A DNA stretch of 7,774 nt from an uncultured Anaerolineaceae bacterium (lineage in GTDB: Bacteria > Chloroflexota > Anaerolineae > Promineifilales > Promineifilaceae): assembly GCA_937967805.1 (NCBI GenBank), contig CALBTC010000516.1:1-7774 (forward strand), given 5' to 3'. The position numbers and the translations under genes are program-made. The first letter of the stretch is position 1. Every line of letters begins with the position of its first letter. Positions 67-7,338 of the stretch are shown here, in pieces. Under the pieces are notes generated by a model, which had not been told where the DNA came from, did not search any database, and worked only from the letters and a program-made list of their open reading frames with translations.

Positions 67-2940
67 TTACTCTTCAATTGTTGTTTCACCTAAGGGAATC
101 CAGCTGTAAACGGCCGTAATCCGTTCATCCAATAGCGGCAGCGGGCGGTTGGTAAAGGCATCATACAGGCGCAAAATGCCGCTGACGGTTTGGCCTGGCG
201 TGGCTGCATTGTCCACAAACAGGATCGGCGCACCGGGCGCTGGCTTTTGGCTCTGGCAAAAGCCGTTGAAAGTGGCCGGGTCCGGGCGGGGCGGGAAAAC
301 AATCGTTCGCGGCGACTGCACCTGGGAGCCGTGTATCCATTTGAGCGTGGGCATACCGCCCACCGCCGGGATGCCATCCACCAGGTCACACCAGGCCCAG
401 GTAAAATTGTCTGTTTCCAGCCCTACCAGCCGGGTGGAAACCACATAGTCGCGCAGGAGAGGACGGCCGTTTATAAACCGCATCGGCAAGGGATATTCAT
501 TGCCCGGAGAGAGTGTTCCGGGCCAATCTGAAAGTGAGTCACCCGTCCAAACAATGCCTTGCCCCAGCGGCACATAGTGGCTGTTTTCCGCTGGACCCGG
601 CATAAACCAGCGATTTTGCCGCAGTCCCCAGGGTCCTAACGTTGGCAGTTCTACCGTTGTTAGATTATCCTGCACACTGCTCCAATAGCCCTCATCGTTT
701 TTCCAGTGCAGATAAAGACGTGTTTGCCCCGGCAAAGTTTGGTCCCAATCATAACCAATGAGCGCCTGAGCAGTTTGACCATCGTTAGCTGGCCGATAAA
801 TTGGATTTTGGGTGGCAGGCGGCAGCTTTGCCAGCGTCACGGTCAGCCGGCCAATTTCAGCAAATTTGCTGCCGCTGCCTAGCCGCAGCGTAAAATCACC
901 CGGCCCCCGGCGGGGCGTCAGGCGGAACTGGGTGAGCGTGATACCTTCAAGTTGGGGAACAGCCTGCACATCTGCCTGGGCCACAATGTTGGCCGATTCA
1001 TCCAGCAGGTGCACAAAAAATGGCACTGGCTCACTCCCTTGCCAGGCCAAAGTGAGGCGCGCTTCCAGGCCAGTTTCCACCTCGGGTTGCTCCAGCCTGT
1101 AGCCCACGACTTGCGTCCTGCCTCCTAGTGAAAAATCAAGCGGTGTGTAATTGTTCGGCAGTTCCATGCGTGGATTTTGACGAAAGAGCAGTCCCTCGCC
1201 CAGCGGTTCGGCGGAAGGGAGCTTGCTGTAGGCGGCTTCATCTACAAAGGTAGCGATGACGGAACGGCCGTTTCCCAATCCCGCCCCAATTTCGTTCACC
1301 CAGGTCTGGCTGTACAATCCGTCACCCGGTGCAACATATTCAATCGTCACATCTGGCCGCACGCCTTCCACCGTTTGCAAATACCACAGCGGCGTGACCC
1401 AATGCCAGTTGGCCAGAATCAGGCTGTCTGGCGGCGCGCCATCCAGGATGGTTTGGGCGTAGTCACGGGCATCTTCCGTTTGGTGCAGCCAGCGATAGCT
1501 GGGATAACGGTGCCACCCTTGCCAGACGGCTGTTGTAAAAAGAACGGCCGTCACCGTCAGCGGCATCCAGCGAACGGCCGCTTTCTGCTGCAAGCCAAAA
1601 CTGCTTAAATAGCCGCCGGCTGCCCCGATGCAAATTGCCAACGGCACATACGCCGGCAGCATATATTCCACCGTCTGCGGCGCGCGATAGGTAGCCGTTA
1701 CCAGCGTGTGCAGGGCAAATGAGCCGCCCAGCAGCAGCCCTAAGCGCCACTGCCGCCAGGTCAATAGCAGCCAGCCCAGCAGCGCACCGGCCAGCAGCCA
1801 GGGCGAAAATTGGAAGGTGAGCACGTTGCCCATCACCTTGAGCCGTGGCCACAGCACCACGGGTTGGACAAAATAAAAAAAATCTCCCTGAAAGCCCAGG
1901 GCAAGGAAATGGTTCAAAAAACCGGAGATGGTGTTGAGGCCTTCGCTGGCTCCCGGCACGTCGACTCCGGCGCGCAGCGGCAGGTAGAGGAGAGGAAGGA
2001 GACCAAGGAGTGTGGCTAGAAACGGCCGTTTCCAGCGCGAGGGCATCCTGAAAAAGCCAGGATCAATCAACAGTAAGCTCAGCCCAAAAACAAGCCCCAT
2101 AAACGCCAGCGACAGATGGTGAGTAAAGCCAAAGCTCAGGGCAGCCGCAAACAGGATCAGATAACGATCTGTCTGGGCTCTTGCCTGCCAATGGCGGACA
2201 AGGGCATAGATGGCCAGGGCGGCAAACAAGGTTGTCAGGCTGCGGATGTTGGCGGTGGTGGCCTGGGCCCAGAAGGTGGTAGCGGTGCCGAGGGCAATGA
2301 CGGCCGTTCCCGCCGCCAGATGTCGCTCTGTTAGCCGAAACACTGTCAGGTAAACCAGGCCCAATGTGGCCGTGCCGGTAATTACCGAAAGCAGATTGAT
2401 TTTGTACGCGGCCGTGGCGGTCAGGGGCAGCCAGGTCATCAACTTACTTAGCAAGGTGTAAAGAGGAAAGCCGGGCGGATGAGCCACGCCCAATGTGGCT
2501 CCCACCAATTGAAACTCCCCATTGTCGGCCGGCAGCAGGCCAGGAGCCAGGGTGAAGCTGTATAGCAGGCCAAACAAAATGACGCTGCCTAGCAGCCCAA
2601 CCCTTAAAGCCCGATCTGGCTGCAAAATTTGTTGGGGAAAAGGCATCATTTGGGACAATACGGCCAATACCAACAAAATGGTTACGACAGCAGCAATGGG
2701 ATCAGGATGGGGATAAAACACGTAGCCCAACAGCAACAGCAACGGCCACGTCTGGCACAGCGGATGACGCCGCAGGCAGAAAAATGCCAAAGATACTAGG
2801 CTGACGGTGAGCAAAATAGCGGCCAACAAGCTGGCTCCATAATGGCGCGCCCATTGCTCACTGACCACTCGACCGGCAAACAAGCCCAGTGCAAGCGGGG
2901 CAATCAGGGGAACCATCTTGTTTTTTAGCTTGGACCACAT
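67..2940 (-). CDS. DUF2723-family multi-spanning membrane protein, predicted protein O-mannosyltransferase (TMEM260-like)
   Basis: A 957-residue integral membrane protein. It has roughly a dozen hydrophobic segments in residues 10-475, followed by a largely soluble C-terminal half (about 480-957). The DUF2723 hallmark is at 137-161: PADNGEF, then GVAHPPGFPLY, with D139, E142 and H154 as likely active-site or conserved residues. This family (human member TMEM260) transfers mannose from a lipid-linked donor to protein hydroxyls; in bacteria the acceptor is generally unknown, so the substrate is inferred. The segment ILANWHW (508-514) followed by a GVRPDV motif is typical of what follows the membrane part. 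Residues 605-710 and 720-925 look like beta-sandwich modules (for example FFVHLLDE at 641-648), probably outside the membrane. The frame stays open upstream to a GTG at 3051, but those 37 extra residues are neither hydrophobic nor family-like. ATG 2940 is preferred because a perfect TATAAT lies 7 bases upstream, which suggests a leaderless message. M9 (2916) is the other option. The gene ends 10 bases from the tRNA on the opposite strand, with no terminator seen between them. Confidence 0.9.
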   Translation of the reverse strand: MWSKLKNKMVPLIAPLALGLFAGRVVSEQWARHYGASLLAAILLTVSLVSLAFFCLRRHPLCQTWPLLLLLGYVFYPHPDPIAAVVTILLVLAVLSQMMPFPQQILQPDRALRVGLLGSVILFGLLYSFTLAPGLLPADNGEFQLVGATLGVAHPPGFPLYTLLSKLMTWLPLTATAAYKINLLSVITGTATLGLVYLTVFRLTERHLAAGTAVIALGTATTFWAQATTANIRSLTTLFAALAIYALVRHWQARAQTDRYLILFAAALSFGFTHHLSLAFMGLVFGLSLLLIDPGFFRMPSRWKRPFLATLLGLLPLLYLPLRAGVDVPGASEGLNTISGFLNHFLALGFQGDFFYFVQPVVLWPRLKVMGNVLTFQFSPWLLAGALLGWLLLTWRQWRLGLLLGGSFALHTLVTATYRAPQTVEYMLPAYVPLAICIGAAGGYLSSFGLQQKAAVRWMPLTVTAVLFTTAVWQGWHRYPSYRWLHQTEDARDYAQTILDGAPPDSLILANWHWVTPLWYLQTVEGVRPDVTIEYVAPGDGLYSQTWVNEIGAGLGNGRSVIATFVDEAAYSKLPSAEPLGEGLLFRQNPRMELPNNYTPLDFSLGGRTQVVGYRLEQPEVETGLEARLTLAWQGSEPVPFFVHLLDESANIVAQADVQAVPQLEGITLTQFRLTPRRGPGDFTLRLGSGSKFAEIGRLTVTLAKLPPATQNPIYRPANDGQTAQALIGYDWDQTLPGQTRLYLHWKNDEGYWSSVQDNLTTVELPTLGPWGLRQNRWFMPGPAENSHYVPLGQGIVWTGDSLSDWPGTLSPGNEYPLPMRFINGRPLLRDYVVSTRLVGLETDNFTWAWCDLVDGIPAVGGMPTLKWIHGSQVQSPRTIVFPPRPDPATFNGFCQSQKPAPGAPILFVDNAATPGQTVSGILRLYDAFTNRPLPLLDERITAVYSWIPLGETTIEE

Positions 2941-2947
2941 GATGGGG

Positions 2948-2953
2948 ATTATA
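2948..2953 (-). promoter_or_regulatory. -10 box TATAAT just upstream of the DUF2723 gene
   Basis: A perfect consensus TATAAT reads on the minus strand and ends 7 bases before ATG 2940, so transcription would begin at or next to the start codon. No Shine-Dalgarno precedes that ATG, which fits leaderless translation. The -35 match is poor: TTGGTG at 2978-2973 with a 19-base spacer is the best seen. Confidence 0.5.
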
Positions 2954-3084
2954 GCGTGGATACAGCGACCGTCACCAAGCCTGGCCTGGGACGTCTCGAT
3001 GCCTATAAAATCATTGAGAATATTGCAGCGCGTGTTGCGCAGCTTGATCACGCCGATAGTTTGCGGCTATTGCGAAACAGTAGA

Positions 3085-3267
3085 CTACTGCTCAGCCTGG
3101 CGCGGATACATCTCTTGGGCAACCTCAGCTTCCTTTTCTTCCCAATCGTCGTAGCTTTCAGTTAAGCCTTCTTCTTGACTGATTCGGGATGAAAGCATGA
3201 GGGCTGCTATTACTAATATTGAGGTGAGGAGCCCCAAAATTAGCCAAACAATGATAATGGTTTGCAT
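3085..3267 (-). CDS. Small single-pass membrane protein, 60 residues, function unknown
   Basis: The family is not recognised. A strongly hydrophobic segment spans residues 3-25 (IIIVWLILGLL and onward), and a very acidic, glutamate-rich tail (30-60, with DDWEEKEAE) follows. This pattern suggests one transmembrane helix near the N-terminus and a charged tail on one side of the membrane. ATG 3267 was chosen because GGAAGAAGAG lies just upstream on the minus strand. The frame also opens at a TTG at 3315, which would add a polar 16-residue extension ahead of the helix and has no better ribosome site. The gene sits 144 bases upstream of the DUF2723 gene on the same strand and is divergent from the kinase gene. 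A TACAAT at 3331-3326 could be its -10 box, without a convincing -35. There are no signs of decay. It could be an accessory subunit of a membrane enzyme, but nothing shows which. Confidence 0.62.
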   Translation of the reverse strand: MQTIIIVWLILGLLTSILVIAALMLSSRISQEEGLTESYDDWEEKEAEVAQEMYPRQAEQ

Positions 3268-3397
3268 ACGGCTCTTCTTCCAATTTGTCGCATTCTCTTC
3301 CTGCTTTTGCGGCAATGCAGGCTAGATTGTATCCTATTTTGCCCAAAAAAAGAGCAATCATCTAAGATTTGCTCATTTTGGGTACTAATTTGCAACA

Positions 3398-3427
3398 ATG
3401 ACAAATTCACGCGCTCAATGTTATACT
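3398..3427 (+). promoter_or_regulatory. Sigma-70-type promoter for the kinase gene
   Basis: ATGACA (3398-3403, five of six matches to TTGACA) and TATACT (3422-3427, five of six matches to TATAAT) are separated by 18 bases on the + strand. Transcription would start near 3434, giving a leader of about 55 bases. That leader contains one ACGGCCGT octamer (3448-3455). It shows no clear Shine-Dalgarno before ATG 3491. The divergent small gene lies on the other side. Confidence 0.55.
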
Positions 3428-3490
3428 TAGCTTAATTCGTAATTTTAACGGCCGTATACAAACCAGGCAGCTTAACCAAAAAACCGTCTC

Positions 3491-6151
3491 ATGACAGAAA
3501 CTGCAACCCGGTCTCCAATAGAAGATCTGGCTAACCCCACACCTGACCGCAAGCCGGCTAAACGGTATATTGCAGAACGGTATGAAGTAGTAAACATGTT
3601 GGAAGGTGGCATGGGGCTTGTGTACCTCTGCCGCGATCATTTCACTTCTGAACTCGTTGCCCTTAAAACATTCAAACCGGAATTTTTGTCTCACCGTGCC
3701 GCCCGTGATCTGTTTTTGCGTGAAGGAACGATGTGGGTGGAAATCGGACGCCATCCTAACGTGGTACAGGCGTACCGTGTGGAGCGCGTGGGGGACGGCC
3801 GTGAAGTGTACCTGGTGCTGGAATGGATTGTGCAGCCGCAGGGCAAAAAATCACCTTCGCTGCGCTCCTGGTTAAAGGGGCAGCCTTTGCCGCTTGAGCA
3901 GGCCATTTTGTTTGCCCTGCACGTCGCTCGAGGGATGCGCTTTGCCACCCAAAAAATCCCTGGCCTGGTTCACCGCGATCTCAAGCCCGAAAATATCCTC
4001 ATCGGCCATGATGGTTCTGCCAGGGTCACCGACTTTGGCCTGGCCAGTACGCTGTCTGGTCACAGTCCCGGCTCGACAGTGGGTGCATTAGAAAACACCC
4101 GAGAAAACATCGGCCGTACGCAGCTAACGCAAGGTGTGGCGGGCACGCCGCTTTACATGGCGCCAGAACAATGGGCGCACAAAGGTTTAGATGCCAGGGC
4201 CGATATCTATGCTTTGGGCTGCATCTTGTATGAGATGGTGACCGGCCGCTTTGCCGCCGAAGGTGAAACGCGGGAAGATTTGCGAGAGGTGCACGTGGAC
4301 GGCCGTATCAAACCGCTCGATCCGGAACTGCCTCTGGCACTGCGCCAATTCATAGAACGTTCTCTCTCTATTCCCAAAGAGCAGCGTTATCGTGACTGGG
4401 CTGAAGTAGAAAAAACACTCGCCACCGTTTATACCAGGGTCACCGGCAAGCTTTCGCCGCCGGAATGGGACGGCGCCGAAGAAACGCCTGACGAGCGACG
4501 GGCGGCAGGCAACTCGTACAACACAATGGGACTTTCCTACCTTGATATCGGCAAACTGGATGTGGCCGTAATGTATTTTGAGCAGGCAGTGAATGTCGCC
4601 CGCGCTGAAAAACTTCGCGAACTGGAAGGCAAAGGACTGGGTAATTTGGGGTTAGCCTATGCCGCATTAGGCTACATTGAGCGCGCCATTGAGTTCCATG
4701 AAGAGCATCTGGCCATTGCCCGCGAACTTGGTGACCGGGCAGAAGAAGGCCGCTCGCAGGGCAATTTGGGTTTGGTGTACCGGCAAAAAGGAGAGCCGGA
4801 GCGGGCGGTGCGCTTTCATGAGAAGGAGCTGCAAATTTTTCAACGCCTGGCTAACCGATACAAGGAAGCAGAAGCGCTGCACAATTTAGGCGAGACCTAC
4901 CGCGAGTTAGGTGATCCAGACCGTGCCGAAAACTATTACAAACAATCATTGGCCATTGCCCGTGACATTGGTGACCGCACCCGCGTCGAACGCATCTTAA
5001 ACAGCATGGGCAAGGTGTTCCTGGATTCCGGCGAGTATAAAGAAGCTGCCCAACTGTTTAAGCAGACGTTGACAATTGCCCGCCAAATTGGGGATCGCGT
5101 GGGTGAAGGCGAAGTGTTGGGTAATCTTGGTGAACTGTATCAGGCTTCCGGCTTCACTGACCGGGCGATTGAATATTACAACTATGCCCTGACCATCTCC
5201 CAAGAAAGCAATGACCGGCGTAAGTTGATCAAAAACCTGCTGCGCCTGGGTGATCTTTACCTGATCAAAAAGGATGTTGATGAGGCGCTGACCCATTATG
5301 AAAGCGGCTTGATTGCCGCCCAGGAAATCTCCGATCAGATGCAGGAACTGGCTGCATTTTCCAAGCTGGGGATAGCGTTTGATGCTCAGGGAAATTACAC
5401 GGAATCTGGCCGGATGTACAAGCGTGCTTTGCTGCTTAGTCGTGAACGAAATGATCGTCAAACCGAGCAAATCATGCTGACCAAGTTGGCCAAGGCGTAT
5501 GAATTGTGGGGTGATTTTAGCCGGGCAATTACCTACCTGGAGCAAAGCTTAGCCATGGTGCAGGCGCAGGAAGATGTCAAGGCGCAAAGCTGGCATTGGC
5601 GTGAATTGGCCCAGTTGTTCCGCAAGCTGAATCAAGTGCGCCCGGCGCTGGAAGCGTTGGAAACCGCCCTCAGACTGGCACGTTCGGTGGCGGATTACGC
5701 CGGTGAAGCAGAAATTTTGACCGACTTGGGAGATTTATATCGTCTGATTAATGATCAAACGCAGGCAATGGAGCATTACAAAGAGGCGCTGGTCCTGGTT
5801 CAGGCCCATGAGCTGATCCTGCACGAGGCCAATGTGCTAAGCGGCATGGGCATGAGCTACCAGGAGATGGGGAAGAAGCGACCGGCCCTGCGTGAGCTGG
5901 AGCGGGGGTTGGAGGTGGCCAAAAAGTCGCGCAGCAGCCGGGCGGTGGCCGATGTCAGCTACCGTTTGGCGATAGTACTATGTAAGCAGAAGAGCTGGGA
6001 GAAGGCAAAACCACATGCGCAGATGGCTTCCCGGCTTTACGGCCGTCTCGCCGATACAAGCATGGCCGACCGGGCCGCAACCCTTCTCAGCCGCATTCAG
6101 CAGAACAAAGGCAAATCAACCGGCTTTTTCCAGAATTTACTGGAATCTTAG
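3491..6151 (+). CDS. Eukaryote-like Ser/Thr protein kinase with a 13-unit TPR array
   Basis: An 886-residue protein with no transmembrane segment, so a cytosolic kinase. The kinase domain (about 31-311) transfers ATP phosphate to Ser/Thr. The ATP lysine is K59 in VALK, the probable helix-C glutamate is E78, and the catalytic loop is VHRDLKPEN (160-168; D163 and N168). DFG is at 181-183, GTP at 218-220, APE at 224-226, the conserved helix-F aspartate is D238, and R299 sits in the last helix. All catalytic residues are present, so it should be active. The glycine loop reads LEGGMGLVY (37-45), one residue short and lacking the first glycine of GxGxxG. The stretch between DFG and APE is long and rich in Ser/Thr, with T213 and T219 as candidate autophosphorylation sites. 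Residues 341-860 form the TPR superhelix, which probably binds a partner or substrate. The ATG has no Shine-Dalgarno, but M36 would delete part of the kinase fold. The gene converges on the metallophosphoesterase gene. Confidence 0.95.
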   Translation: MTETATRSPIEDLANPTPDRKPAKRYIAERYEVVNMLEGGMGLVYLCRDHFTSELVALKTFKPEFLSHRAARDLFLREGTMWVEIGRHPNVVQAYRVERVGDGREVYLVLEWIVQPQGKKSPSLRSWLKGQPLPLEQAILFALHVARGMRFATQKIPGLVHRDLKPENILIGHDGSARVTDFGLASTLSGHSPGSTVGALENTRENIGRTQLTQGVAGTPLYMAPEQWAHKGLDARADIYALGCILYEMVTGRFAAEGETREDLREVHVDGRIKPLDPELPLALRQFIERSLSIPKEQRYRDWAEVEKTLATVYTRVTGKLSPPEWDGAEETPDERRAAGNSYNTMGLSYLDIGKLDVAVMYFEQAVNVARAEKLRELEGKGLGNLGLAYAALGYIERAIEFHEEHLAIARELGDRAEEGRSQGNLGLVYRQKGEPERAVRFHEKELQIFQRLANRYKEAEALHNLGETYRELGDPDRAENYYKQSLAIARDIGDRTRVERILNSMGKVFLDSGEYKEAAQLFKQTLTIARQIGDRVGEGEVLGNLGELYQASGFTDRAIEYYNYALTISQESNDRRKLIKNLLRLGDLYLIKKDVDEALTHYESGLIAAQEISDQMQELAAFSKLGIAFDAQGNYTESGRMYKRALLLSRERNDRQTEQIMLTKLAKAYELWGDFSRAITYLEQSLAMVQAQEDVKAQSWHWRELAQLFRKLNQVRPALEALETALRLARSVADYAGEAEILTDLGDLYRLINDQTQAMEHYKEALVLVQAHELILHEANVLSGMGMSYQEMGKKRPALRELERGLEVAKKSRSSRAVADVSYRLAIVLCKQKSWEKAKPHAQMASRLYGRLADTSMADRAATLLSRIQQNKGKSTGFFQNLLES
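4511..6070 (+). repeat. Thirteen in-register 120-bp units encoding TPR repeats
   Basis: The units begin at residues 341, 381, 421 and so on to 821, each exactly 40 residues with no insertion or deletion. Every unit carries LG, MG or LA at its sixth and seventh positions: M346-G347, L386-G387, L426-G427, L466-G467, M506-G507, L546-G547, L586-G587, L626-G627, L666-A667, L706-A707, L746-G747, M786-G787 and L826-A827. Several units share the motif LAIAR followed by a hydrophobic residue and GDR (407-416, 487-496, 527-536). This resembles the 40-residue TPRs of the GPSM2/Pins type rather than the usual 34-residue form. At the DNA level the units have diverged apart from those motifs. Confidence 0.9.
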
Positions 6152-6160
6152 AATTGGAGT

Positions 6161-6210
6161 TTGGGCCAATTTTTTCGATGCGAAGCCTTTTCCGGAGAAA
6201 ATTGGCCCAA
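6161..6210. repeat. Hairpin 1: perfect 13-bp inverted repeat with 24-base loop
   Basis: The arm TTGGGCCAATTTT (6161-6173) is exactly complementary to AAAATTGGCCCAA (6198-6210). The loop contains a nested TTCG-ATG-CGAA hairpin (6174-6184) and the palindrome TCCGGA (6191-6196). It starts 9 bases after the kinase stop codon. Neither strand has a T run after the stem, so it is not a standard intrinsic terminator. It could still protect a 3' end or help end transcription between the convergent genes. Confidence 0.75.
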
Positions 6211-6222
6211 TCTTGGCCAACT

Positions 6223-6272
6223 AAGTAGCCGTTCGGAATTAACATAGCGATTTCGGAACCGAACGGCTACTT
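6223..6272. repeat. Hairpin 2: perfect 14-bp inverted repeat with 22-base loop
   Basis: The arm AAGTAGCCGTTCGG (6223-6236) is exactly complementary to CCGAACGGCTACTT (6259-6272). The sequence is unrelated to hairpin 1, but the arm and loop lengths are nearly the same, and both span 50 bases. The only T stretch after the stem on the + strand is three bases long, too short for a usual terminator. Confidence 0.75.
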
Positions 6273-6275
6273 TAA

Positions 6276-6314
6276 GCCCATTCGCCAATTCCGCTAACTT
6301 ATTTGCGAATGGGC
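6276..6314. repeat. Hairpin 3: 10-bp perfect stem extended by 3 bp after one mismatch
   Basis: GCCCATTCGC (6276-6285) pairs exactly with GCGAATGGGC (6305-6314). After one mismatch, AAT (6287-6289) pairs with ATT (6301-6303), leaving an 11-base loop. Only three bases separate it from hairpin 2. It lies 22 bases beyond the stop codon of the phosphoesterase gene, which runs on the other strand. No T run follows on either strand. Confidence 0.7.
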
Positions 6315-6336
6315 ACTAACTATATGGTTACGAATT

Positions 6337-7338
6337 TTAATTGTTAAATACTGAGCGTAAATTGGGGACCAGGTCTGCGGCCGTTGCAAATCGCTCCCGA
6401 ATATTGAACAGCAAATAAAGACCCGCTTCACGGGGCAGTGCATGTTTGGCGCTGGCCACGCGCAGCTGCTGCCGGTTGACCACTTTGTGCCCGCCCCGGC
6501 AATCAATGTGGCCGGTTACCAGTACGGTTTGTCTCTCATACCCGTCAGAAAGTGCCTGAAGCAACGTGTTGAGCAGCACCTGGTAGCTGTTGTCGCCATA
6601 CTCTTTTTCATTGCGGGAAAACATGGCGGGCCACAGCAGCTCGAAATCTTCGTCTGAAGTGGCCAAAGTGCCAACGAGGAAATCGTCGTAGCGGGGATCG
6701 TTCAGGCCGGAGACGGCAAACCATTTGCGGGCCATCTCGTTGTAGGTACGGCCGTGCATCTTGCGCATGGCCCGAATGAGAGACGGCCGTTCTTCCTGCG
6801 TGATTTGGGCCCGGGTGCGGGTTAAAATTTTCTGGTGCGAGAAGTTAAACAGCCGCTCAATGCCGTTGGTTTCGCCCAGAGCCGTGCTGGCCCCGGCGTG
6901 GCAAATGGAGACACCGCCAGGCGTGCGCACGTAAAAAGGCAGGCTGTCAAAAAAAGAAACGATCTTTTCGCGATGGTCGCCCATGGCAAATTCAAAACGA
7001 GGGGTAAACAACTCATCCCCCTTTTGCAGGGTGATGCTGTAAATGTGGGGCAGTTCATGATTGCCCAACAGGTAGATCAGGTTGTCGCCCAGCTCTTTTT
7101 TTAGTTCGATGATATCTAAGACGATCTCAACCGATTTGTCTTGATGGGCCGGGGCACTGGCATGAATCATATCGCCAGCGAAGATTAAAATGTCGGCCTG
7201 ACCCAGGTCACGCAGCTGAAAAAAGGAGTCACGATACCGCCGGTAGGCATCCCAGTCGCCATGCAGATCGGTCACGACCATCGCCTGCCCTTCTGTGAGG
7301 TCTACCACCCGCTGCCATTTTTTGCCTGCGTCACTCAA
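6337..7338 (-). CDS. Calcineurin-like metallophosphoesterase (PPP type), possible protein phosphatase
   Basis: A 333-residue cytosolic protein with no signal peptide or membrane segment. It carries the metal-binding blocks of the calcineurin-like phosphoesterase fold in order. They are DLHGD (24-28; D24, H26), GDMIH (55-59; D56), GNHE (92-95; N93, H94), CHAG (146-149; H147) and TGHID (275-279; H277), with a further GGH at 282-284. These residues hold two metal ions and catalyse phosphoester hydrolysis. The second block lacks the DRG of classical GDxVDRG phosphatases and has His where Asp is usual. The protein is longer than lambda-type phosphatases (about 220 residues) or ApaH (about 280), and the extra sequence lies mainly between residues 150 and 270. 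The start is TTG at 7338, supported by AAGGAAG at 7351-7345 with 6-base spacing; the next Met is residue 20. Its substrate may be a phosphoprotein or a nucleotide, and the sequence does not decide. It converges on the Ser/Thr kinase gene. Confidence 0.88.
   Translation of the reverse strand: MSDAGKKWQRVVDLTEGQAMVVTDLHGDWDAYRRYRDSFFQLRDLGQADILIFAGDMIHASAPAHQDKSVEIVLDIIELKKELGDNLIYLLGNHELPHIYSITLQKGDELFTPRFEFAMGDHREKIVSFFDSLPFYVRTPGGVSICHAGASTALGETNGIERLFNFSHQKILTRTRAQITQEERPSLIRAMRKMHGRTYNEMARKWFAVSGLNDPRYDDFLVGTLATSDEDFELLWPAMFSRNEKEYGDNSYQVLLNTLLQALSDGYERQTVLVTGHIDCRGGHKVVNRQQLRVASAKHALPREAGLYLLFNIRERFATAADLVPNLRSVFNN

Follow-up and report, generated by a model that had tools for sequence, protein, structure and literature searches.

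We examined a stretch of 7,774 nt from an uncultured Anaerolineaceae bacterium (contig CALBTC010000516.1; referred to as the window), which carries genes for a TMEM260-like glycosyltransferase, a protein kinase with TPR repeats, and a metallophosphoesterase, as well as hisE, and in which the palindromic octamer ACGGCCGT recurs. The original prediction, made from the sequence alone, listed 12 exact copies of this octamer and likened them to HIP1, the highly iterated palindrome (HIP) of cyanobacteria. All 12 copies were confirmed (Table 1), far above the expectation from 200 dinucleotide-preserving shuffles (mean, 0.12; maximum, 2), and every other palindromic octamer occurs at most twice in the window. 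The estimate of about 19 CGGCCG cores, 12 of them with A...T flanks, was exact, and the codon phases assigned to the copies (Thr-Ala-Val [TAV], Arg-Pro, and Gly-Arg) were correct. One copy had been placed in a 5' leader; it lies outside the four genes, with its first base 43 bases 5' of the kinase start. The closest relatives of the window-encoded proteins come from metagenome-assembled genomes (MAGs) of Chloroflexota, including "Candidatus Leptofilum" and "Candidatus Promineifilaceae," which the NCBI taxonomy assigns to the Promineifilales.

Table 1. Copies of the octamer in the window and their state in related loci (L numbers)
Element	Position	Strand	Location	Codon phase	Intact in	Not intact in
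ACGGCCGT	110..117	.	TMEM260-like glycosyltransferase gene (67-3051, -)	Thr-Ala-Val	L001, L002, L003
ACGGCCGT	463..470	.	glycosyltransferase gene (67-3051, -)	Asn-Gly-Arg	L001-L003
ACGGCCGT	1264..1271	.	glycosyltransferase gene (67-3051, -)	Asn-Gly-Arg	L001-L003
ACGGCCGT	1544..1551	.	glycosyltransferase gene (67-3051, -)	Thr-Ala-Val	L001-L003
ACGGCCGT	2022..2029	.	glycosyltransferase gene; centre of 14-base palindrome	Arg-Pro	L001-L003
ACGGCCGT	2300..2307	.	glycosyltransferase gene (67-3051, -)	Thr-Ala-Val	L001-L003
ACGGCCGT	3448..3455	.	intergenic		L002	L001 (unaligned in L003)
ACGGCCGT	3795..3802	.	protein-kinase/TPR gene (3491-6151, +)	Asp-Gly-Arg	L001-L003, L008, L009
ACGGCCGT	4299..4306	.	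kinase gene (3491-6151, +)	Asp-Gly-Arg	L001-L003
ACGGCCGT	6039..6046	.	kinase gene (3491-6151, +)	Tyr-Gly-Arg	L001-L004
ACGGCCGT	6748..6755	.	metallophosphoesterase gene (6337-7338, -)	His-Gly-Arg	L001-L004	L005, L006, L007, L008
ACGGCCGT	6783..6790	.	metallophosphoesterase gene	Arg-Pro	L001, L002, L005, L006, L007	L003, L004, L008

Genome-wide counts were made in relatives of the window, not in its own genome. Among 20 related loci, 11 contain 7 to 53 copies of ACGGCCGT (0.8 to 2.5 per kb) and nine (L012 to L020) contain 0 to 2. The whole genomes of 14 relatives divide similarly, with 6,147 to 12,866 copies in 10 and 99 to 152 in the other four; as a control, the octamer with its letters reversed occurs 40 to 610 times in these genomes. 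In 400 kb from two genomes, 684 copies were found, compared with 9.9 expected under an order-3 Markov model with the motif masked, which bears out the proposal that the enrichment is genome-wide. Screening 298 genomes sampled from the class of one relative (G001) led to the identification of 11 genomes with >1,000 copies, all belonging to one order, and no genome from outside it had more than 430. Of the 56 genomes of the order, 28 carry 2,887 to 15,176 copies each, at 0.4 to 2.1 per kb, and are referred to as A-dialect genomes. The carriers identified belong to a single order of Chloroflexota, probably the Promineifilales. We found no report of a HIP or of over-represented palindromes in Chloroflexi/Chloroflexota in the open literature, a search that did not extend to subscription papers and preprints; papers containing the letters of the octamer, among the matches listed, hold them as chance strings to judge by their titles.

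Comparison with related genomes, one of the checks named in the original prediction, revealed that ACGGCCGT sites are kept far above other octamers. In L001, L002, and L003, 11/12, 12/12, and 10/11 of the aligned window copies are intact, compared with fractions of 0.26, 0.20, and 0.13 for other octamers. Codon alignments gave the same picture: 59/66 sites are kept from G002 to G003 (76% identity) and 57/71 from G003 to G002 (background, 0.18 to 0.19), 91/95 from G008 to G009 (93% identity; background, 0.60), and 18/23 from G311 to G313 (81% identity; background, 0.29). At 64 to 72% identity, retention falls to 10/29, 10/24, 13/25, 16/35, and 8/16 (background, 0.08 to 0.13), indicating that the sites turn over. 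For rpoC, 786 of 1,390 sites (0.57) are kept across all ordered genome pairs, against 0.26 for other octamers of the form NCGGCCGN and 0.12 for the remaining octamers; this count covers 25 A-dialect genomes, the other three (G007, G315, and G316) being left out, and includes related genomes repeatedly. Fourfold-degenerate bases are nearly frozen inside the motif, being identical at 124/126 positions from G002 to G003 and at 188/190 from G008 to G009, compared with 2,826/5,545 and 6,011/7,281 positions outside it. The kinase gene of the window fuses a protein kinase domain to a long TPR array, and the genes around it are aligned in the same order in L001 to L003.

Within this order, highly iterated palindromes form a family, NCGGCCGN, of which the octamer is the A-dialect. 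Two genomes carry the T-dialect, TCGGCCGA (9,414 copies in G314 and 7,668 in G108), and one the G-dialect, GCGGCCGC (12,040 copies in G195), each with <200 copies of ACGGCCGT; the A-, T-, and G-dialects are mutually exclusive within a genome. Three other genomes (G165, G217, and G293) are rich in the core without a fixed flank and contain 1,189 to 2,982 copies of ACGGCCGT. Another 20 genomes of the order were sampled; in them, CGGCCG occurs at 2.4 to 12 times the dinucleotide expectation with no single fixed flank, compared with 1.4 to 1.8 times in G318, G319, and G323, 0.2 times in a 10-kb sample of G322, and 0.6 to 2.2 times in five genomes outside the order. Some of these samples are only 3 to 12 kb long, the expectation is inflated by the motif itself, and G333 was not sampled. 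G322 instead carries an alternate palindrome on another core, TGCCGGCA, which had been used as a control pattern (3,665 copies; 12 in the 10-kb sample). The same octamer occurs 886 times in G323. Among one-mismatch forms of ACGGCCGT, those altered in the core are depleted (69 versus 128 expected) and those altered at an end are enriched (194 versus 104). GCCGGC is strongly depleted in samples of G165, G293, G195, G314, G003, and G002 (0 versus 9 to 15 expected in three genomes and 28 versus 160 in G003), as restriction-site avoidance would give, and other genomes lack this depletion.

Phylogenetic placement of the dialects relied on a single-gene rpoC tree of 58 genomes (rpoC was found in 58 of 60). 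Core enrichment is seen even in the earliest-branching lineages of the order (G284, G237, G336, and G337), and the T-dialect pair are sisters. A group of eight core-only genomes (G302, G328, G327, G049, G128, G081, G325, and G326) is nested among A-dialect genomes, as are G165 and G323. On one reading, the hexamer is ancestral and the flanks were specialised later; on another, some lineages relaxed the A-dialect to the core alone. Changes of flank at the same position were seen in rpoC, where G195 has GCGGCCGC at a site at which 18 genomes have ACGGCCGT, and at 2/13 sites compared between G003 and G195; these orthologous sites are too few to support in-place switching between dialects. Within the T-dialect pair (64% identity), 1/5 and 1/6 sites are kept, the two genomes being too divergent to reveal site conservation.

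Most copies lie within genes, where all three reading phases are used and phase 0 is the commonest, and such a distribution could in principle follow from codon usage or from a peptide motif (Thr-Ala-Val, Gly-Arg, or Arg-Pro). We consider this explanation almost certainly wrong. Taking genes as the longest open frames, without a gene finder, we counted 899 TAV tripeptides in six A-dialect samples (three pairs of relatives, which are hence not independent), compared with 125 expected from composition; this 7-fold excess is accompanied by the spelling ACGGCCGT in 863 cases (96%). In the same samples, Asn/His/Asp/Tyr-Gly-Arg occurs 555 times versus 182 expected and is spelled as the motif in 499 cases. 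The enriched peptides differ between dialect genomes: Ser-Ala-Glu/Asp in two T-dialect samples (246 versus 55 expected; 221 as TCGGCCGA) and Ala-Ala-Ala in the G-dialect sample (45 versus 10; 36 as GCGGCCGC). The latter tripeptide is frequent in G081 as well (59 versus 18), but only 1/59 is spelled as the motif, and some other genomes are similar. In six motif-free samples, TAV is found 16 times versus 18 expected, with the motif in 2/16. In the third phase, 236 of the 333 x-Arg-Pro-y positions at which the motif is reachable (71%) are occupied. Accessible codons are near saturation with the motif. Where TAV is spelled as the motif, the following base is T in 190/345 cases, whereas GTT makes up 21% of valine codons, and symmetrising the flanks revealed a weak preference for GGAA-ACGGCCGT-TTCC. 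The use of three phases, the presence of intergenic copies at 0.9 to 1.4 per kb, the dialect-specific peptides, and the frozen fourfold-degenerate bases refute a codon or peptide cause. Both outcomes that the original prediction named as refuting it, a count near the Markov expectation and an enrichment fully explained by codon pair usage in one phase, are contradicted in the relatives: the count is far above that expectation, and peptide and codon use follow the motif, not the reverse.

In two genomes, density is 0.91 and 1.39 per kb between genes versus 1.48 and 2.04 within them. Less conserved genes (the lower half) carry the motif at about double the density of the others. Counts per 5 kb are over-dispersed relative to a Poisson distribution (variances of 18.8 and 15.1 with means of 7.2 and 9.9). 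Within 888 kb of genes, adjacent sites <30 bp apart are depleted (41 versus 74 after shuffling; z, -4), and spacings of 30 to 250 bp are near expectation (z, -0.2 to -1.3). The depletion below 30 bp, together with near-expected spacing at 60 to 250 bp, fits a protein footprint and action at individual sites. A function of even spacing, which we also considered, left little sign beyond this depletion and a mild excess at 250 to 400 bp. HIP1 itself reportedly shows a periodicity of 10 to 90 kb along the chromosome (Xu et al., in 2018). A 25.8-kb stretch of G003 (C90, 103165-128944; L246-L247) contains no ACGGCCGT; the adjoining 20 kb to each side have 33 and 32 copies. This stretch has a GC content of 0.47, includes a PF00145 methyltransferase gene, and is probably a recently acquired island.

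The motif also occurs in viral contigs. Viral loci were found by scanning for two copies of a motif ≤30 bases apart, a pattern that favors dense contigs, and the figures given here hold among the matches listed. The first 120 viral loci have a median density of 0.37 per kb, and 15 of 239 loci from the A- and T-dialect scans (L121, L129, L133, L170, L222, and 10 more) pass an A-dialect threshold that we set ourselves, some of the 15 being pieces of one contig. Three contigs carry 3.0 to 3.7 copies of ACGGCCGT per kb and are thus denser than chromosomes. All three encode phage-type proteins: L121 encodes a terminase small subunit and a helicase loader, L133 encodes an anti-repressor and an FtsK-like protein, and L170 encodes a phage-type PAPS reductase, a ParB-like protein, and an N-6 methylase domain. 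In the three contigs, TAV is spelled as the motif in 21/21, 24/25 (L133 with L188, from the same contig), and 16/16 cases. No T-dialect phage was found among the matches listed for the 239 loci. No relative of the window metallophosphoesterase was found in viral contigs.

A methyltransferase specific for CGGCCG had been suggested as one possible basis of the repeat. Following the model of Elhai (2015), a cytosine methyltransferase of this specificity, coupled to methylation-directed mismatch repair, would create the sites. In the excerpts of PMC4390886, cyanobacterial HIPs are usually, with exceptions, accompanied by a cognate methyltransferase, and their one-off forms show the same pattern of a fixed core and looser ends. 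We searched 17 of the 28 A-dialect genomes for the families PF00145, PF01555, and PF02086. These MAGs may be incomplete, although rpoC was recovered from 58 of 60 genomes and ComEC from 50 of 56. PF00145 (5-methylcytosine) had no match in 9 of the 17, and PF01555 gave only weak matches (G001, 1.8e-5; G002, 4.3e-8; G007, 5.0e-4; and G181, 9.5e-10). PF02086 (D12) is present in 16 of the 17, weakly in G227, and was suspected on this ground. The best D12 proteins of 15 genomes fall into one of two groups that are 31 to 39% alike, and six of the 17 genomes (G001, G007, G008, G009, G010, and G181) have a single D12 gene. Four D12 proteins match TIGR00571 (dam) in NCBIfam, and two match Dam or DpnII methylases in the PDB. 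Dam methylates GATC; the D12 enzymes examined are thus of the Dam type, further copies in some genomes being unexamined. The two D12 groups (L085, L087, L089, and L091 versus L082, L088, L090, L092, L093, and L095 to L100) replace one another across the order. None of the three families has a match in the core-enriched G217, and no methyltransferase with a plausible CGGCCG target is common to the 17 genomes within these families, to which the search was limited. The flanks are a further difficulty for the methyltransferase model, which predicts G...C flanks (found only in G195) if the outer C is methylated and no flank preference if the inner C is methylated. We therefore regard it as improbable, and this part of the original prediction, a CGGCCG-specific methyltransferase as the general cause, is not upheld, whereas its description of a HIP1-like, genome-wide, DNA-level element independent of codon usage is. 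Chromosome organisation and a repair-coupled signal, the other roles it proposed, may still apply. Two other candidates were set aside because of their sporadic occurrence: Vsr, of very-short-patch repair, is found in 8 of 56 genomes, and DndC, of Dnd phosphorothioation, in 5 of 56 over the cut-off and 10 of 56 at an E value of 0.001.

These results make it nearly certain that ACGGCCGT is a HIP-type element acting at the DNA level. As to how it is written, our tentative best guess is that a symmetric recognition protein exerts molecular drive. A force blind to reading frame would write the site wherever protein constraint allows and then hold it in position, and the same force would have acted on phage DNA. 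The palindrome may be recognised by a homodimeric sequence-specific protein, and alleles with the full site may be preferentially retained during repair or recombination; both the binding of a protein and writing by drive instead of weak selection are inferences. A change in the flank specificity of this protein would lead a lineage to lose the old dialect and fill with the new one. The fuller claim that writing is independent of methylation, with a symmetric protein bringing chromosomes and phages near saturation, reshaping the proteome, and repeatedly switching its flank specificity (A, T, and G), is one we advance as a possibility somewhat short of even. If it is true, each flank switch rewrites thousands of sites and alters which tripeptides are common.

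Several points weigh against drive. No protein that writes or holds the motif was found, the A-dialect genomes do not form one clade on the rpoC tree, and the viral contigs were picked by a density-favoring pattern, with their hosts inferred from the motif alone. Adjacent spacings of 250 to 400 bp are mildly in excess (226 versus 192.5; z, 2.6), and sites with a neighbor within 150 bp are kept slightly less often than others (50/59 versus 118/125, P = 0.05; in the other direction, 49/61 versus 117/126, P = 0.01). Taken together, this excess and the neighbor effect could reflect diminishing returns and hence function; the neighbor effect is ambiguous, because dense sites lie in faster genes. 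Weak selection per site in a large population would yield the same observations as drive. Under this alternative, which we consider rather unlikely, a nucleoid or chromosome-organising protein binds the palindrome, every copy of which brings a small fitness gain. It would accommodate the same conservation of sites, the depletion of close pairs, and the two spacing effects just described, and selection on HIP1 with a role in chromosome structure was proposed by Xu et al. (2018), as cited in an excerpt of PMC6604393. It fits less well with the near-expected spacing at 30 to 250 bp and with the viral contigs that, among the matches listed and chosen by pattern, are denser than chromosomes, and, whenever a dialect is replaced, functional sites would have to change by the thousand along with the protein.

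A DNA uptake sequence, i.e., a palindromic self-label for natural transformation built up by uptake-biased recombination, is also unlikely, if less so than the methyltransferase model. The DNA uptake sequences (DUS) of Neisseriaceae resemble the pattern described here in having dialects that share a core, numbering as many as 5,918 in 2.4 Mb (PMC3630211, as excerpted), and prophages accumulate the uptake signal of their host while accessory genes remain signal-poor (PMC6776037, as excerpted), as in our genomes. ComEC (PF03772) was detected in 50 of the 56 genomes of the order. However, four genomes in which the core is not clearly enriched (G318, G319, G322, and G323) also have it, two A-dialect genomes (G006 and G266) yielded no match, and in two more (G001 and G004) the match contains a stop, although gaps in MAGs may explain the misses. 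ComEC thus does not separate carriers from non-carriers and decides neither for nor against a role in uptake. One-mismatch forms of uptake sequences are over-represented according to the excerpt of PMC1939737, whereas over-representation here does not fall gradually with mismatch load, core one-offs lying below expectation and end one-offs above it. Approximately 2 sites per kb near saturation would also require very short transforming fragments. Moreover, uptake sequences are not known to be palindromic.

The element shares with HIP1 (GCGATCGC) and the alternate HIPs a palindromic octamer spread over unrelated genes, with a fixed hexamer core and looser outer bases. Its density is also similar (HIP1 genomes mostly have 300 to 2,700 copies per Mb), and related cyanobacterial lineages likewise replace HIP1 by another palindrome, according to the excerpts of PMC4390886. 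It differs in its CGGCCG core, its occurrence in another phylum, its three dialects on one core (with outer bases A...T, T...A, or G...C), the existence of genomes with a flank-free hexamer, and the lack of a common plausible methyltransferase in the three tested families. With the DUS and the uptake signal sequences of Pasteurellaceae, it has in common core-sharing dialects, a similar density, accumulation in phages, and slow build-up in new DNA (excerpts of PMC3630211 and PMC6776037), and it is set apart from them by its perfect palindromy, its depleted core one-offs, and the presence of ComEC in motif-free genomes as well. Chi sites (in part as excerpted from PMC4390886) are likewise short, GC-rich, over-represented octamers; the present motif, being palindromic, gives no direction of reading and reaches up to about 2 copies per kb. 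Two known rare-cutter sites of restriction-modification systems correspond to the G-dialect octamer (GCGGCCGC, NotI) and to the core (CGGCCG, EagI); such sites are usually avoided, whereas here they are strongly enriched.

A HIP1-type element outside the cyanobacteria, with a new core, in a new phylum, and forming a series of dialects, is a real and strong finding. The role of HIP1 in cyanobacteria is unsettled, and this HIP with another core, found in a phylum far from them and accompanied by dialect switches, losses, and relatives that have only the hexamer, provides a comparative contrast; the cognate methyltransferase as a general explanation of HIPs is weakened by these genomes. The dialect switches are natural, and a responsible protein must track the dialect. 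For uncultured Chloroflexota, scarcity of the motif may serve as a marker of motif-poor islands, and its presence in viral loci could serve as a host label for their phages. In these bacteria, a DNA motif sets amino acid sequence at the scale of the proteome.

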